The notes under the pieces: model-generated
Seen by the model: the letters and a program-made list of their open reading frames with translations, nothing else
What the model was told of the DNA's origin: nothing
Databases searched by the model: none
Position numbers and translations under genes: made by a program
In this document: positions 8,386-15,468 of the stretch, one piece after another
Position numbering within the stretch: the stretch's first letter is position 1
How the letters are laid out: the number at the start of each line of letters is the position of its first letter
Assembly (NCBI RefSeq): GCF_016126015.1
Contig: NZ_JAEFDB010000010.1
Coordinates: 1 to 64,000, forward strand
Length of the DNA: 64,000 bases
Source: Capnocytophaga periodontitidis
GTDB lineage: Bacteria; Bacteroidota; Bacteroidia; Flavobacteriales; Flavobacteriaceae
Direction of reading: 5' to 3'

Positions 8386-8417
8386 AAAGGCGCGAGCTCA
8401 TAGCTCGCGCCTTTTTT
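8386..8417 (+). terminator. Intrinsic terminator after DUF502 gene
   Basis: GGCGCGAGCT and AGCTCGCGCC pair over 10 bases around a three-base loop, followed by seven T. A near-identical hairpin, without the T-run directly behind it, recurs at 21993-22015, so this is also a member of a small repeat family. Confidence 0.92.
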
Positions 8418-8435
8418 ATCCCCCATTCCTCTACT

Positions 8436-8464
8436 GTTACAACCCTGTAACCCCCGGTTACAAC
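8436..8464. promoter_or_regulatory. Dyad GTTACA-N4-TGTAAC plus a third half-site
   Basis: GTTACA and TGTAAC form a perfect inverted repeat (8436-8451), with another GTTACAAC at 8457-8464. It lies about 60 bases before the lysis cassette and resembles the palindromes upstream of the two nitroreductase genes (33716, 47013). Operator function is inferred. Confidence 0.4.
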
Positions 8465-8518
8465 TATTTGCCCACTTCTTCAGAACTCCCCAATTTTGCA
8501 CCACAAATCAAAAAGAAA

Positions 8519-8788
8519 ATGGAACTCCTCAAAGAACAATTCATTACCTTTATAGGGCTCTTGCTCTCTGGCTGGGTAGGCTGGCTCTTCGGCCGACCAA
8601 AACAACGCGTTGAACTCCAATCTAACGAATTAGACAATGTTGATAAGGCAATTCACATCTACCGCGAAATGATTGACGACTTAGGTGTAAAATACGCCAA
8701 AGCCATTGCCGACCTCAATGAGGCTAACCAACGCATCAAAGAACTTGAGTCTTCTATCGATAACCTTTTAAAACAACTTAGAAAATGA
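8519..8788 (+). CDS. Small membrane-anchored coiled-coil protein, holin-like position
   Basis: This 89-residue protein begins MELLKEQFITFIGLLLSGWV; the ATG is preferred over an upstream TTG that would add 17 unlikely residues. One membrane helix (about 8-25, ending in FGRPK) is followed by a charged coiled coil (about 35-87). It overlaps the next gene by the four-base ATGA. The gene order (small membrane protein, muralytic enzyme, lipoprotein with C-terminal membrane anchor) is that of a phage lysis module, where the first gene is the holin. The protein itself shows no family-defining holin motif, so the call rests on context and topology. Confidence 0.6.
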   Translation: MELLKEQFITFIGLLLSGWVGWLFGRPKQRVELQSNELDNVDKAIHIYREMIDDLGVKYAKAIADLNEANQRIKELESSIDNLLKQLRK

Positions 8789-9318
8789 CAAACAACGAAC
8801 AACAAATCGCACATTTTGTAACTACCTACAAACCCTATGCTTTAGAAACCGAACGAAAAACGGGCATTTCACACCTCTTTATTTTAGCACAAGTAGCCTT
8901 AGAAAGTGCTTGGGGAACACACGCTCCCGGTAATATGTTCTTTGGCATAAAAGCTAAACCTAATACGCCCACCGAGGAACGACAACTCTTGCTAACTACC
9001 GAAATCCTCTCTTGTGATTGGCAAACTTATCAGCGCAACCCTGCATTACAAAAATTCCCCGAAGTACTAAGCGTTACCAAGCGTCCTGATGGCAAATACA
9101 CCTATAAAGTAAAAGACTGGTTCAAAAAATACCCCTCTCCCGAAGCCTCTTTCACCGATCACGCCCTGTTTTTCCTGCACAATCCTCGCTACGCAGAGGC
9201 TCTAAAGGTCAAAACCGACCCTTACTTATTTGCCGAAGCCATCGCTCGTGCTGGTTATGCTACCGCCCCCGATTATGCTACCCAACTCAAAAAAATCATA
9301 AAACAACTATCAAAATGA
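8785..9318 (+). CDS. Glucosaminidase-domain muralytic enzyme (endolysin-like)
   Basis: This 177-residue protein consists almost wholly of a glucosaminidase (FlgJ/lysozyme-type, glycoside hydrolase family 73-like) domain. Visible hallmarks are FILAQVALESAWGTH with the likely catalytic Glu40, NMFFGIKA at about 50-57, and YPSPEASFTDHALFF then NPRYAEAL. It would cleave between peptidoglycan sugars. There is no signal peptide and no wall-binding repeat, as expected for an endolysin that needs a holin to leave the cytoplasm, and unlike a housekeeping autolysin. It is coupled by ATGA overlaps to genes on both sides. Confidence 0.85.
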   Translation: MTNNEQQIAHFVTTYKPYALETERKTGISHLFILAQVALESAWGTHAPGNMFFGIKAKPNTPTEERQLLLTTEILSCDWQTYQRNPALQKFPEVLSVTKRPDGKYTYKVKDWFKKYPSPEASFTDHALFFLHNPRYAEALKVKTDPYLFAEAIARAGYATAPDYATQLKKIIKQLSK

Positions 9319-9758
9319 AACAAATCCTCTTTTTATCGCTTTTTTCACTTCTGCTATCTTGTAAAACGCACAAAATCAAACAAACTGAAACTCTCCAAAT
9401 GCGTGAGCAACTTGATAGCCTCTACCAGCAACAACACGCCGTATTACACAGCATCGAATGGCTCAACAGCCTGCAAGAAGTGCATCTCACTCTTGAATCG
9501 TTTAAGGATAGCACGGGGCGTACCCAAGTACAACTCCACAGCACTACCCGTCTAAAACACCTGCGTGAATACACCGATAGTCTGCAACAAAATGAGGTAC
9601 TTCATCTACGACAAAGAACCCTGCATTTCCACAAACGCCAATCACTCAAACAAAAAGAACACAAATTTGAGTTATCTCCTAATAACTATTGGCTTATTGT
9701 ACTCGTTTTGGTAGCGATTGCCTATTACCAATATAAAAAACGTATTCTAAAAAAATAA
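9315..9758 (+). CDS. Lipoprotein with C-terminal membrane helix, u-spanin-like
   Basis: This 147-residue protein has a lipoprotein signal peptide (MKQILFLSLFSLLLSC, lipobox LLSC, Cys16), a helical, Gln/His-rich charged middle, and a C-terminal membrane helix (about 124-140, NYWLIVLVLVAIAYYQY) ending in basic residues. An outer-membrane lipid anchor at one end and an inner-membrane helix at the other is the architecture of unimolecular spanins such as phage T1 gp11. These fuse the two membranes in the last step of lysis. It overlaps the muralytic gene by ATGA. The family is inferred from topology and order only; no sequence relative is recalled. Confidence 0.6.
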   Translation: MKQILFLSLFSLLLSCKTHKIKQTETLQMREQLDSLYQQQHAVLHSIEWLNSLQEVHLTLESFKDSTGRTQVQLHSTTRLKHLREYTDSLQQNEVLHLRQRTLHFHKRQSLKQKEHKFELSPNNYWLIVLVLVAIAYYQYKKRILKK

Positions 9759-9790
9759 AGAAACTATTTACACCACCCCTCCCACCTCCA

Positions 9791-9830
9791 AGATTCTCCG
9801 AGATTTTCCAAGATTTTCTGAGATTCTCCA
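9791..9830. repeat. Four tandem imperfect 10-bp units
   Basis: AGATTCTCCG, AGATTTTCCA, AGATTTTCTG and AGATTCTCCA run head to tail, equivalent to two 20-base copies. They lie between the spanin-like gene and the CDF transporter promoter. No coding potential is seen. Confidence 0.75.
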
Positions 9831-9899
9831 CAACACCTCCAGCGGGGGTTAGGCTTTGAAAAAACATCTCTAAATAGAGATTATTTCTAAATAAATTTG

Positions 9900-9907
9900 T
9901 ACCTTTG
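9900..9907 (+). promoter_or_regulatory. -7 box for the CDF transporter gene
   Basis: TACCTTTG fits TAnnTTTG, 50 bases before the start codon. A copy of the CTTATCTCTTACCT repeat (9916-9943) lies in the leader between the promoter and the gene. Confidence 0.55.
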
Positions 9908-9957
9908 CCCCAATTCTTATCTCTTATCTCTTACCTCTTACCTAAAAAAGAAGTATT

Positions 9958-10890
9958 ATGGAACATTCACACGACCACAACCACGACCACGATCATCACC
10001 ACCATACAGTAACCGATCTAAGTGCTCTCAACCGCGCTTTCTACATAGGTATTGGGCTCAATTTGCTCTATACCCTTATCGAATTTGTAGTGGGGTTTAA
10101 AGTCAATTCATTAGCGCTTATTTCCGATGCAAGTCATAATCTGAGCGATGTTGCTAGTTTAGTGATTTCACTCATCGGAATGAAACTTGCTCACCACGCT
10201 GCTACCCAGCTATATACTTATGGCTACAAAAAAGCGTCTATCCTCGCTTCACTTATCAATGCGGTACTGCTGATGTACATCGTGATAAAAATCTTTATCG
10301 AAGCCTTTGAACGCCTTTCCAATCCTCCCGAAATGGCTGGAGCTGCTATTGTGATTACAGCCTTTATAGGGGTGATTATCAACGGGCTATCGGCTTTCCT
10401 CTTCTATAAAGGTCAAAAAAACGACATCAATATCAAAGGGGCTTTCCTACACCTCCTCCTCGATGCTTTAGTATCGGTAGGGGTGATTATCTCAGGTGCA
10501 ATTATGTACTTTACCGGTTGGTATATCGCCGACCCTATCAGTAGTTTTATGGTGGGTATCGTGATTCTCTTCTCTACTTGGGGACTCTTAAAAGAAAGCG
10601 TAAAACTCATTTTAGACGGCGTCCCTCAGAATATAAACCAAGCTCACATACAACAATTGATAGAACAACATCCAATGGTCGAAAGCGTGCATCACCTCCA
10701 TATATGGGCACTGAGCAGTGCTCAAAATGCCTTAACAGCCCATTTGGTACTCAAAGAATGTATTACTCTAAAAGAATTTATGACCATCAAAGCTGAACTA
10801 AAACACTCACTCTCTCACGAAGGAATTACCCACAGCACTTTTGAAATAGATACCGAAAATTGCCACTGCAAAGAAGAAAACTGTAATTAA
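9958..10890 (+). CDS. Cation diffusion facilitator metal exporter (CzcD/ZitB type)
   Basis: This 310-residue inner-membrane antiporter exports Zn2+, Co2+ or a similar divalent metal in exchange for protons. A His/Asp-rich N-terminal tail (residues 2-16) probably binds metal. Six membrane helices (about 25-215) carry the two metal-site HxxxD motifs: ISDASHNLSD (His60, Asp64) and LHLLLDALVS (His165, Asp169). A cytoplasmic C-terminal domain (about 220-295) holds VHHLHIWAL and ends with an HCKEENC metal-binding tail. Length fits the CzcD subgroup (about 300). It stands alone with its own promoter. Confidence 0.93.
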   Translation: MEHSHDHNHDHDHHHHTVTDLSALNRAFYIGIGLNLLYTLIEFVVGFKVNSLALISDASHNLSDVASLVISLIGMKLAHHAATQLYTYGYKKASILASLINAVLLMYIVIKIFIEAFERLSNPPEMAGAAIVITAFIGVIINGLSAFLFYKGQKNDINIKGAFLHLLLDALVSVGVIISGAIMYFTGWYIADPISSFMVGIVILFSTWGLLKESVKLILDGVPQNINQAHIQQLIEQHPMVESVHHLHIWALSSAQNALTAHLVLKECITLKEFMTIKAELKHSLSHEGITHSTFEIDTENCHCKEENCN

Positions 10891-12354: not shown

Positions 12355-13125
12355 TTATTCCCCTTCTTTTACTTCTTGGGGTGCAGGCTCTTCTTTTACC
12401 TCTTGGTATACTGGTTCTTCACTTGAAGGATATACCGGCTCTTGAACATTAGGTTGTTCATTCTTGTTTTTAGAGAGTTTTAAACCTGCACCTATAGAAA
12501 TAGCAATATAGTAACTTTTAGCATCTTTAAAATAAAGATGAGGAATGTATTCTTGATTGGTAAGGGGGGTAAGGTTCGTAGAAAAACGAGCATCAACGGT
12601 GAAAATCCATTTAGGAATCTCCCACATCACTCCTCCACCTACGTGGAAACTAAGTGAAGCTTGGTTGAAATATTTCGTCATATTAAACTTCTCACTGTTC
12701 TGTTTTTCAGAATACGATGCCAAAAGCAAGATTTTAGGAGCTAATCCTATTTGTCCAAAACCTCTAAACCACTTTTTACCCTCAAATTGTAATAAGAAAG
12801 GCATTTCTAAGTAATCAAAACGAATGTGACGGCGGTCTTGCAATTTTAAATCAGAGCCTTCAGGGCGATACGGAATCGCCTCGCGCTTATACATCAACTC
12901 TATTTGTGAAGCGAAATGAGTTTTAAAGGGTATTCGCAAGAATAACCCTGAGTTCACTACGCCTGTTTTTCCAAAATACTCCACGTTATACCCTTCCATC
13001 GATTGTATGGGTGTAATAATCGTAAAAGTACTTGCAGGGCTATTGATTTTCACCCCTATCGCAGTTTGCGCAAAGCTAAATGTAGTAACACTCAAAAAAA
13101 TGATGATGATTAAAAAACGTTTCAT
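12355..13125 (-). CDS. Tandem outer-membrane beta-barrel protein, copy 4
   Basis: This 256-residue PorT/OMP_b-brl_2-type protein is last in transcription order of four paralogues. A signal peptide (about 1-19, MKRFLIIIIFLSVTTFSFAQ) precedes alternating hydrophobic strands. Shared landmarks are AIGVKI near the mature N-terminus, KWFRGFGQIGLAPKI (about 115-130), VGGGVMWEIPKWIFTVDARFS and the final strand YYIAISIGAGLKLSKNKN. The C-terminal tail after the barrel is Pro/Glu-rich (VQEPVYPSSEEPVYQEV) and differs from copies 1-2. It is probably an outer-membrane protein exposing variable loops; no ligand can be named. It follows its neighbour by exactly 18 bases. Confidence 0.82.
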   Translation of the reverse strand: MKRFLIIIIFLSVTTFSFAQTAIGVKINSPASTFTIITPIQSMEGYNVEYFGKTGVVNSGLFLRIPFKTHFASQIELMYKREAIPYRPEGSDLKLQDRRHIRFDYLEMPFLLQFEGKKWFRGFGQIGLAPKILLLASYSEKQNSEKFNMTKYFNQASLSFHVGGGVMWEIPKWIFTVDARFSTNLTPLTNQEYIPHLYFKDAKSYYIAISIGAGLKLSKNKNEQPNVQEPVYPSSEEPVYQEVKEEPAPQEVKEGE

Positions 13126-13143
13126 AATATATGAGTTAAAAAA

Positions 13144-13932
13144 CTAAAATTCTTGTTCTTGTGATGTATTCACCTCAGCAGGAATGCTATCATTAGTAAT
13201 TGTTGGGAGCTCTTCCTGAGGAATAGCCCTTTCTAAAGGCAATGCTTTCTTTTTAAAAGGTTTGTAACCTGCCCCTAAAGAAAACGCAAAATAATAGCTT
13301 TGTGCCTTACTGAAATCAATATCAGGGGTGTTCTTTTTAGAGGTAAGTGGTGTAAGGTTGGTAGCGAGTCTTCCATCAGCAGTAAAAACCCAATCTCTTC
13401 TGTTCCATAAAACACCTCCCCCAACATTTAAATTGAGAACAACCCTATTAAAAGAGCTCGTAACATTATGGTCGCCTTTTTCTAAAACTGCAGAATACTT
13501 TGCTGAAGTTAAGAATTTAGGAGACACTCCTAATTGAGCAAAACCTCTTACGGTGCGCTTTCCTTCCCATTGTAACAGGATAGGAACCTCAGCATACCAA
13601 AATTTATATACTCCGCGATCAGAGAGAAGTTCTTCTATTGTTTCCTCTTGATGAAAAAACCAAACCCCTTCACGCTTGAACAACACTTCGGTTTGTAGTG
13701 CCCAATGTGTTTTTAGAGGTATTCGCATAAAAGCTCCTATATTAAAAGCCCCTATATAAAACTCACCAAAAATACCTCCTCCGTTTCTAATCCCCTTAGG
13801 TGTATTTGCAATTTGATGTTTCATTACATTAACTGCTACAAACGGATTAGCAACTTTCACCCCTACGGCTATTTGGCTATAGCTAAATGCCGAAATACTT
13901 AAAAGCATAGCAGTAATTAAAAAACGTTTCAT
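13144..13932 (-). CDS. Tandem outer-membrane beta-barrel protein, copy 3
   Basis: This 262-residue paralogue has a signal peptide MKRFLITAMLLSISAFSYSQ. It keeps the family landmarks RTVRGFAQLGVSPKF, VGGGVLWNRRDWVFTADGRLA and YYFAFSLGAGYKPFKKK. It differs from the other copies by a Gly-rich insertion near 47-60 (GIRNGGGIFGEFYIGAFNIG) and a tail without TEEV repeats. Its role is unknown beyond a likely outer-membrane barrel. The 18-base gaps on both sides equal those between the other copies. Confidence 0.8.
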   Translation of the reverse strand: MKRFLITAMLLSISAFSYSQIAVGVKVANPFVAVNVMKHQIANTPKGIRNGGGIFGEFYIGAFNIGAFMRIPLKTHWALQTEVLFKREGVWFFHQEETIEELLSDRGVYKFWYAEVPILLQWEGKRTVRGFAQLGVSPKFLTSAKYSAVLEKGDHNVTSSFNRVVLNLNVGGGVLWNRRDWVFTADGRLATNLTPLTSKKNTPDIDFSKAQSYYFAFSLGAGYKPFKKKALPLERAIPQEELPTITNDSIPAEVNTSQEQEF

Positions 13933-13950
13933 AATATCTTTAGTGAAAGA

Positions 13951-14688
13951 TTATTCGGTTATGGGTTCTTTATTTACCTCTTCAGTAGGTGTGATAACTT
14001 CTTCAGTAGGAGTTACGACTTCTTCAGTAGGAAGAGTATTATTTTTCTTTTTAGAGAGTTTGTAGCCTGCGCCTAACGAAATGCCAAACACAAATGTTCT
14101 CGCTTTATCAAAATTGATATATTCTGTACGGATTCCCGATGCTAAGTTCGTTATATTGGTAGAAAGACGAGCATCAACTGTGTAAATCCATTTAGGGCGC
14201 TCAAATAGCACGCCTCCTCCAATATGTCCCATCAACATCACTGTATTAAATTGGGAACTTCCTCCATAAGTAATATTCTTAGAAGCATCATAAAAAGCAG
14301 AAGAGAAGAGAATTTTAGGTGAAAAACCTACAAAACCAAAACCTCTAAACGCTTTCTTACCTTCGTATTGTACTAAGAAAGGCACGTCCAAGTATTCAAA
14401 TCTATAATAAGAATCTTTGCTGCTATTCTCTATTCTAAAACGCACAGCCTCGTGCTTAAAAAGCAATTCACTTTGTAATACCCAACGCTCTTTTAAAGGA
14501 ATACGAACGAATCCTCCAAGGCTAACAAAGGCATTGTAGGTTTTTATATCAACATTGGTTGCTGTATATAAAGGAGTTATTAAGCTAACAACCGACAGTG
14601 GGTCGGTTACTTTTACCCCTATCGCAGTTTGTGCAAAGCCCAAATAAGCAGCGCAAAGCCATAAAATTGTAGTTAAAAAGCGTTTCAT
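13951..14688 (-). CDS. Tandem outer-membrane beta-barrel protein, copy 2
   Basis: This 245-residue paralogue has a signal peptide MKRFLTTILWLCAAYLGFAQ that is nearly identical to copy 1, pointing to recent duplication or gene conversion. Barrel landmarks are KAFRGFGFVGFSPKI, IGGGVLFERPKWIYTVDARLS and FVFGISLGAGYKLSKKKN. The periplasmic tail is a short tandem repeat of the unit TPTEEV ending NKEPITE, shared with copy 1. Copy number of the TEEV unit could vary by slippage. No enzymatic motif is visible. Confidence 0.8.
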   Translation of the reverse strand: MKRFLTTILWLCAAYLGFAQTAIGVKVTDPLSVVSLITPLYTATNVDIKTYNAFVSLGGFVRIPLKERWVLQSELLFKHEAVRFRIENSSKDSYYRFEYLDVPFLVQYEGKKAFRGFGFVGFSPKILFSSAFYDASKNITYGGSSQFNTVMLMGHIGGGVLFERPKWIYTVDARLSTNITNLASGIRTEYINFDKARTFVFGISLGAGYKLSKKKNNTLPTEEVVTPTEEVITPTEEVNKEPITE

Positions 14689-14706
14689 AATATATTTAGT
14701 TAAAGA

Positions 14707-15468
14707 TTATTCGGTTATGGGTTCTTTATTTACTTCTTCAGTAGGAGCTACGACTTCTTCAGTAGGTGTGATAACTTCTTCAGTAGGAGGAGTATTGTTT
14801 TTCTTTTTAGAGAATTTATAGCCTGCACCTAACGAAAATGTAAAGGTATGATTTCTCGCTTCTATGAAATTTAAATAAGGAGAACTGCTATTCGCTGCCA
14901 TTTTGGTGAGATTAACTGAATAACGTGCTTCGGCAAACAACAACCATCTGGAGCGTTCTACGAGCAACCCTCCTCCTATATTGAAGTTGATGTGTAGTTG
15001 TCCTGTGCCAAAATAGTATTTCATATCTTGCACCTCATTGCTTCCTTTATCTCTAAAAGCTGCTCTTGTACTAATTTTGGGTGAAAAACCTAACTGTGTA
15101 AATCCTCTAACGGGTTTTTTGCCCTCGAATTGTATCATAAGAGGGATTTCTAAGTAATCAAACTCGTAATAAGGGCGTTCTTCGTAATCCCAACTGCTAT
15201 CTTTAGGACGGAATGACAATGTTTCTCTGCGATAAAGCACTTCAGTTTGTAATGCCCAACGTTTGGCGAGTTGGAAATGTGCAAATACACCTGAATTAAA
15301 CGCAGCAATTCGCGGATAAATCTCAATATCATAATTTTCGTTAGAGGTGAGCTCGTTGAAAAAATTAAAAGAATGTAATGGAGTATTCACTTTCACCCCT
15401 ATTGTGGTTTGTGAAAATCCAACATAAGTAGCACAAAGCCATAAAATTGTAGTTAAAAAACGTTTCAT
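14707..15468 (-). CDS. Tandem outer-membrane beta-barrel protein, copy 1
   Basis: This 253-residue protein is the promoter-proximal member of the four-gene array. The signal peptide is MKRFLTTILWLCATYVGFSQ. Landmarks are KPVRGFTQLGFSPKI, IGGGLLVERSRWLLFAEARYS and HTFTFSLGAGYKFSKKKN, followed by a TPTEEV/APTEEV tandem tail ending NKEPITE. It lies 40 bases after the CBS-domain gene, which is probably transcribed into it. The 18-base spacers between array members have related sequence (ATAT followed by TTTAGTTAAAGA in the two best conserved), a mark of array amplification. Confidence 0.8.
   Translation of the reverse strand: MKRFLTTILWLCATYVGFSQTTIGVKVNTPLHSFNFFNELTSNENYDIEIYPRIAAFNSGVFAHFQLAKRWALQTEVLYRRETLSFRPKDSSWDYEERPYYEFDYLEIPLMIQFEGKKPVRGFTQLGFSPKISTRAAFRDKGSNEVQDMKYYFGTGQLHINFNIGGGLLVERSRWLLFAEARYSVNLTKMAANSSSPYLNFIEARNHTFTFSLGAGYKFSKKKNNTPPTEEVITPTEEVVAPTEEVNKEPITE

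Follow-up and report, generated by a model that had tools for sequence, protein, structure and literature searches.

A three-gene set with the order of a phage lysis cassette stands behind a composite promoter that it has in common with a family of signal-less proteins of about 187 aa, and this sharing of a promoter is the new observation reported here. The set lies in the window (the whole stretch of 64,000 nucleotides that was analysed, positions 1-64000 of contig C2 of genome G000). We think it rather probable that this triplet is a phage lysis cassette that a Capnocytophaga clade has domesticated and retains at a constant position next to a CDF-type cation-efflux gene, and that it would lyse cells for release. 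The triplet occupies 8519-9758 of the forward strand, with open reading frames (ORFs) at 8519-8788 (89 aa), 8785-9318 (177 aa) and 9315-9758 (147 aa), coupled by ATGA overlaps at 8785-8788 and 9315-9318. The features of the locus are the following:

8387..8418, + strand: intrinsic-terminator-like hairpin GGCGCGAGCTCATAGCTCGCGCC followed by a T run, read in the sequence, which parts the cassette from the upstream gene (named DUF502-like on our own assumption)
8436..8464, + strand: direct repeat of GTTACAAC, two copies (8436-8443 and 8457-8464) 21 bp apart, operator-like
8460..8500, + strand: composite promoter ACAACTATTTG-N-TTTTGCA, common to genes of the 187-aa family
8519..8788, + strand: gene 1, P0001, 89 aa, N-terminal membrane helix and then a coiled coil, a probable holin
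8785..9318, + strand: gene 2, P0002, 177 aa, predicted endolysin of the glucosaminidase family without a signal sequence, by Pfam, PHROG and structure matches and hydropathy
9315..9758, + strand: gene 3, P0003, 147 aa, N-terminal lipobox LLSC and C-terminal membrane helix, the architecture of a unimolecular spanin (u-spanin)
9900..9907, + strand: TACCTTTG, read in the sequence as the likely -7 box in a separate promoter of the following gene, presumably so when judged against the Bacteroidota promoter consensus
9958..10890, + strand: CDF-type cation-efflux gene, named by eye, the constant downstream neighbour in five genomes, which we regard as separate from the cassette

A first-pass annotation of this DNA had described three ATGA-joined genes with no phage genes nearby, and both statements were borne out, the former by the ORFs and the two overlaps. 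By eye, we recognised no phage gene among the ORFs listed for the 64 kb, and no integrase beside the triplet among the window ORFs and the neighbours of the triplet loci. The topology it had proposed also held in Kyte-Doolittle profiles, with a single hydrophobic stretch in P0001 (1.49 over 19 residues, from residue 7), none in P0002 (maximum 0.98 over 19 residues), and a lipobox plus a C-terminal hydrophobic stretch in P0003 (1.48 from residue 118).

Regarding the second gene, P0002 matched Pfam Glucosaminidase (4.9e-27), the endolysin family PHROG 3513 (2.9e-44) and solved FlgJ structures (2.8e-12), and in this last sequence match its ALESAWG motif aligned with ALETGWG of FlgJ. We labelled the protein GH73-type and took the Glu of the motif to be catalytic. 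With its glucosaminidase fold, its Glu motif and no export signal, P0002 is predicted to be a GH73-type phage endolysin; the hidden export signal that had been raised as a possible objection did not appear, since hydropathy gave no signal helix. Related lysins were found in 17 viral contigs and in 40 phage records, the best three of which are Flavobacterium phages with 49-53% identity. The search of the genus gave 36 rows, of which 16 are close homologues from 11 of 20 Capnocytophaga genomes and 20 are weaker (E 1.7e-10 to 8.5e-6). We assigned the contexts of the 16 close loci by eye, aided by PHROG scans of a few proteins: five are the triplet at the CDF locus, one is another isolated set (L078, in G008), three are tailless capsid-plus-lysis islands and seven are prophage-type or other mobile gene sets. 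The second close copy in G000 (C1:497923, L073) is found in a locus that brings a holin-like gene, a lysin and a spanin of its own.

The N-terminus of P0003 is hydrophobic and ends in the LLS-C lipobox. Phage T1 gp11-type unimolecular spanins have an N-terminal lipobox and a C-terminal membrane helix, and P0003, which has no PHROG match at E<=1, is like them in architecture only. With the lipobox pattern and a C-terminal helix by hydropathy, we assign it as a u-spanin by architecture, with envelope fusion as its putative activity. The accessible part of one report annotates unimolecular spanins in two Cellulophaga phages (PMC8776804). Loss of the lipobox or the helix among homologues, another objection foreseen, was not seen in the five genomes with the triplet, all of which keep both (helix hydropathy only 1.28 in G001 and 1.22 in G013, where the protein is fused to the lysin). 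At each of the 16 close loci of the genus, the lysin has a partner protein that combines a lipobox with a C-terminal helix, encoded downstream in 15 (about 2.7 kb away at L072) and upstream in one (L077). After its cysteine (CKTHKIK), P0003 lacks the K-(D/E)2 surface-export motif of Capnocytophaga, a lipoprotein signal defined in C. canimorsus in the accessible part of the source (PMC5080379), and is thus expected to be an outer-membrane lipoprotein facing inward, to the periplasm. At L071 of G013 (9668-10654), the lysin and the u-spanin-like protein form one in-frame ORF of 328 aa with an internal lipobox-like stretch, which could reflect a naturally fused endolysin-spanin or else an atypical start of translation within the ORF. 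A fusion would tether the lysin, and this counts against the reading as a lysis cassette.

The product of the first gene, P0001, also carries a GRPKQR motif and a long coiled-coil-like tail. No holin model was among its Pfam or PHROG hits at E<=1; its best PHROG hit was a weak Rz-like spanin (0.0012), and its sole lysis-linked Pfam hit was XhlA (0.55), a family that we take to be lysis-linked. P0001 matches were found in 11 of the 20 Capnocytophaga genomes (E<=0.1) and in 7 of 349 genomes of the sampled family, two of the seven being Capnocytophaga. By eye, Mu-like prophages of G010, G009 and G004 have close homologues amid their tail genes, and the Mu-like prophage L124 has, besides its P0001 homologue, a separate membrane protein, an amidase-like gene and a spanin-like gene. 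Three matches from the sampled family (L207, L210 and L211) likewise have head or tail genes around them, and a fourth (L209) is in an unplaced gene set. Two other contexts point to a holin. At L208, by eye, a P0001-type gene comes first, linked through ATGA to a lysin-like gene from a different family, with a lipoprotein after them, and at L126/L127 a P0001-like gene (28-29% identity) occupies the slot that a two-helix holin-like protein has in the syntenic L077 element. Look-alikes of this two-helix protein, in L073 and L078, hit PHROG 20732 (unknown function), and the one in L078 also weakly hits a holin PHROG (0.0015). According to this equivalence of slots, P0001 is likely a holin. L126, L127 and L077 represent another type of mobile element, syntenic across three genomes, in which the P0001-like or two-helix holin-like gene is accompanied by a lipoprotein and a protein of 1200-1300 aa.

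The earlier description of a ‘complete’ holin/endolysin/spanin set stands in part. The phage-type endolysin and the u-spanin remain, joined by a probable holin, with no phage recognised beside them and kept by selection; the word ‘complete’ goes too far for P0001, which has no holin model and whose homologues lie among tail genes, in one case in a prophage that has a separate lysis set. Lysis could also have been lost, with the set doing envelope work (vesicles, peptidoglycan remodelling or DNA release) and P0001 serving as an anchor or regulator. The missing holin-family match, the homologues in prophage tail regions and the lysin-spanin fusion of G013 would agree with this. We hold it rather unlikely, however, as the genes are ordered and paired like those of phage lysis cassettes, and homologues of P0001 take the holin slot in the two other contexts (L208; L126/L127).

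Besides the window, the triplet is present in G018 (C. sputigena), G013, G001 and G009, that is, in 5 of the 20 Capnocytophaga genomes, so the concern that it might be restricted to a single genome was dismissed. In all five the triplet is followed immediately by the same CDF gene, and no structural gene of a phage was recognised next to the triplet. The genes upstream of it vary, with the exceptions of the DUF502-like gene in the window and G018 and a 187-aa gene in G001 and G009. The CDF gene itself was found in 17 of the 20 genomes (E<=1e-40; the G017 match, at 39% identity, is probably another member of the family), and no triplet precedes it in the 11 further loci examined (G017 excluded), with upstream sequence limited to about 2 kb in G003 and about 0.6 kb in G015. 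In the CDF tree, the five holders form one clade (86/85) together with G010 and G008, which lack the triplet. On this single-gene tree the triplet label needs at least two changes, which fits a single gain followed by one or two losses. In the lysin tree, the five CDF-locus lysins are clustered (0 of 500 shuffles were as low), two label changes are needed, and only 12% of bootstrap trees unite the five, since capsid-island lysins are interspersed among them.

For the one genome pair compared, the window and C. sputigena, dN/dS values of the three genes were 0.074, 0.133 and 0.134, with dS values of 0.60, 0.50 and 1.02. Such ratios (0.07-0.13) show that in this pair the triplet is kept by purifying selection and is not decaying. 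The adjacent DUF502-like and CDF genes gave dS values of 0.71 and 0.75, similar to the 0.50-1.02 of the triplet. The next two genes downstream (trmB-like and exonuclease-like) gave far lower values of 0.20 and 0.25, and two further genes 0.36 and 0.50, so divergence is uneven along the locus.

These data bear on two other explanations. A decaying prophage remnant without host function would have a lysin of phage type and could well be missing from G010 and G008, members of the same clade, but the frames are open in five species (in G013 as the fusion), the downstream neighbour is the same in 5/5 and selection is purifying in the pair tested. On its presence in 5 of 20 genomes and the dN/dS values we rejected this explanation, to which we would allow the faintest of probabilities. 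The other is a mini-cassette that moves horizontally and lands repeatedly beside the CDF gene. It would account for the variable upstream flanks and for the two label changes, not one, that both trees need; we regard it as very improbable, since the dS of the triplet is like that of the adjacent genes and no integrase was recognised by eye beside it.

The promoter region links the cassette to other genes. The two GTTACAAC repeats upstream of P0001, whose 21-bp spacing resembles, in our judgement, that of LytTR-type binding sites, have a similar arrangement before the triplet in L066 and a diverged one in L071. As single words, GTTACAAC occurs 5 times in the window, where 2.07 are expected on average, and 4 of 100 shuffles reach 5. 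Using the strict pattern of the composite promoter genus-wide, we obtained 20 matches, 18 of them in the five triplet genomes and the other two in G016 and G017 (one per genome); the reversed control gave 0. Eleven of the 20 precede the triplet or a 187-aa gene (including L204, assigned partly by its place), three (L199, L202 and L206) are at contig ends beside 5S rRNA, four (L191, L197, L200 and L201) precede neither, and two look like chance. Promoters of 187-aa genes may have been copied along with the genes, so these are not 20 independent events. The triplet promoter of G013 is one base off the strict pattern and stands outside the 20. G000 has two strict matches, one before the triplet and one before a lone 187-aa gene 98 kb away, and the same pair was found in G018; a looser pattern gave 5 matches in G000 and 0 in its reversed control. 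In G001 and G009, the same composite promoter precedes an extra 187-aa gene standing just before gene 1.

We also sampled the regions upstream of 187-family genes, taking 29 of the 30 loci L143-L172 and leaving out the stop-interrupted L165 and the 187-family matches without a locus identifier. The exact pattern is present in 8 of these 29 regions and in 3 of 402 upstream regions of longer genes in the fetched loci (5 of 402 with one mismatch), and its rate in Markov shuffles was 0.0003. The three matches among the 402 belong again to 187-family genes, at the same loci as three of the eight. Leaders of a GTTCTTTG-AYAT-like type, which we find similar to boxA, come after the composite promoter at L191, L197, L199, L201, L202 and L206, where no 187-aa gene was recognised; these promoters possibly drive non-coding transcripts.

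Of the 20 Capnocytophaga genomes, 14 carry the 187-aa family, as do 4 of the 299 searched in the sampled family (E<=1e-10), three of the four being Capnocytophaga. In 16 aligned members, the maximum hydropathy of the first 40 residues was 0.26-1.49 over 15 residues; four unfused spanin signals gave 1.89-2.71 over the same length. The N-termini are below the latter, so no export signal is apparent. Assignment to a known family failed at the curated cut-offs of NCBIfam (best 0.0065, unrelated) and Pfam, where one member showed weak Ig-like hits, with a C-terminus resembling Big_6 (0.00065, below the cut-off). PHROG gave weak hits only (best 0.011), and searches of viral contigs, plasmids and phages gave no match at the limits applied; we therefore discarded the idea of a known protein, phage or plasmid family. 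No convincing solved relative was found either (best E 0.55). Regarding location, a 187-aa gene of G010 lies directly upstream of the CDF gene in the absence of the triplet, an order that looks like 187-triplet-CDF after loss of the triplet. The family also occurs in 9 of the 15 genomes without the triplet, hence its genes do not require it. One member, at L212 (G010:C1:803460-804017), is inside a Mu-like prophage, beside a sheath-like gene.

The common promoter makes this signal-less family a plausible candidate cargo of the cassette, and we infer that it strengthens the reading of the triplet as a system for programmed lysis or release. A more specific proposal would be that the Capnocytophaga clade has a one-promoter regulon, marked by spaced TTACAAC repeats, in which lysis genes are expressed together with signal-less 187-aa proteins with Ig-like ends, which would be delivered when the u-spanin cassette lyses a part of the cells. 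We put this forward as tentative, and with clear doubt.

Capsid-plus-lysis islands carry close homologues of the lysin. Those at L072 (G011), L076 (G012) and L079 (G007) are compact and lie between housekeeping genes, with scaffold-like, 185-187-aa and major-head genes, three small genes, a glucosaminidase and a lipoprotein. The major-head protein of L079 matches PHROG 29 (9.3e-38), and no tail or tape-measure gene was recognised in the fetched stretch of the three islands. Their capsid gene is over 70% identical in G011, G012 and G007 (3 of 20 genomes), with 24-27% relatives in G004 and G008. The five CDF-locus lysins form one supported clade (97/94) with those of L072, L076, L079 and L001, the latter being an identical viral-contig copy of L079. 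This kinship would suit a lysis module that serves another element encoded elsewhere, be it a satellite, a tailless capsid element or a gene-transfer-like particle. We consider this quite unlikely: at E<=0.001 the island capsid gene was not found in the five cassette genomes, for which reason we rejected lysis on behalf of such islands, and the only other close lysin locus of G000 has its own holin-like/lysin/spanin set. Service to an R-type tailocin was likewise rejected for G000, which gave no contractile-sheath match (PF04984). A second kind of isolated lysis set was seen at L078 (G008), with a PHROG 20732 holin-like gene, a lysin, a spanin, a gene that is NYN-like by eye and a 187-aa gene; its flanks are housekeeping genes in the listed part (-7 to +6 kb).

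If the triplet is a domesticated lysis cassette, as we favour, its action can be pictured from the predicted parts. Once the shared promoter is turned on, P0001 would gather in the inner membrane and open it, the signal-less glucosaminidase P0002 would then get to the peptidoglycan and cleave it, and P0003, attached to the outer membrane by its lipid and to the inner one by its helix, would disrupt or fuse both. The cell, or possibly a subpopulation, would burst, and cytoplasmic content would come out as in type 10 secretion systems (T10SS).

In the accessible parts of two reports, T10SS are gene sets derived from phage lysis that lie outside phages and release proteins, with a core of a holin and a peptidoglycan hydrolase and, in some, spanins; they are named from Salmonella, Serratia, Yersinia and Clostridioides, and include Serratia ChiWXYZ, Yersinia entomophaga YenLC and Salmonella TtsA and ChiH/ChiP (PMC10847048, PMC13284979). 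The same parts place the Y. entomophaga lysis cassette apart from the toxin island to which it is transcriptionally coupled (PMC10847048, PMC13284979), and argue for a lytic (PMC10847048) or a non-lytic (PMC13284979) mode of release. The Capnocytophaga cassette is similar in having phage-type lysis genes outside a phage, under selection and with a promoter common to a signal-less protein. P0002 fits the hydrolase of the core, no phage was recognised nearby, and the holin slot would be filled by P0001. In contrast to those systems, it belongs to Bacteroidota and combines a glucosaminidase, a u-spanin instead of Rz/Rz1 and a one-helix candidate holin. Known here from its genes, the cassette appears T10SS-like by anatomy, and we do not class it as a member. 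It also resembles the lysis cassettes of flavobacterial phages and Capnocytophaga prophages in its holin-lysin-u-spanin order and homologous lysins, but those are accompanied by capsid, tail or other phage genes, whereas the triplet stands alone by housekeeping genes. One search, mostly of papers outside subscription, gave no paper on T10SS in Bacteroidota, and the matches listed, mostly from the same kind of papers, included no title dealing with orphan lysis cassettes of Capnocytophaga or other Bacteroidota.

All this suggests that a fraction of Capnocytophaga cells may lyse themselves in order to release something. If true, lysis-based release would extend to a further major group of bacteria, through a selected, promoter-linked u-spanin cassette of oral bacteria. 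The triplet would then offer a simple three-gene system for the study of one-protein spanins, and the 187-aa family a named candidate cargo open to experiment.

Downstream of this locus, at 12355-15468, the window also contains four tandem paralogous genes for outer-membrane-like proteins (MKRFL...GVKV), three of which were seen in C. sputigena.
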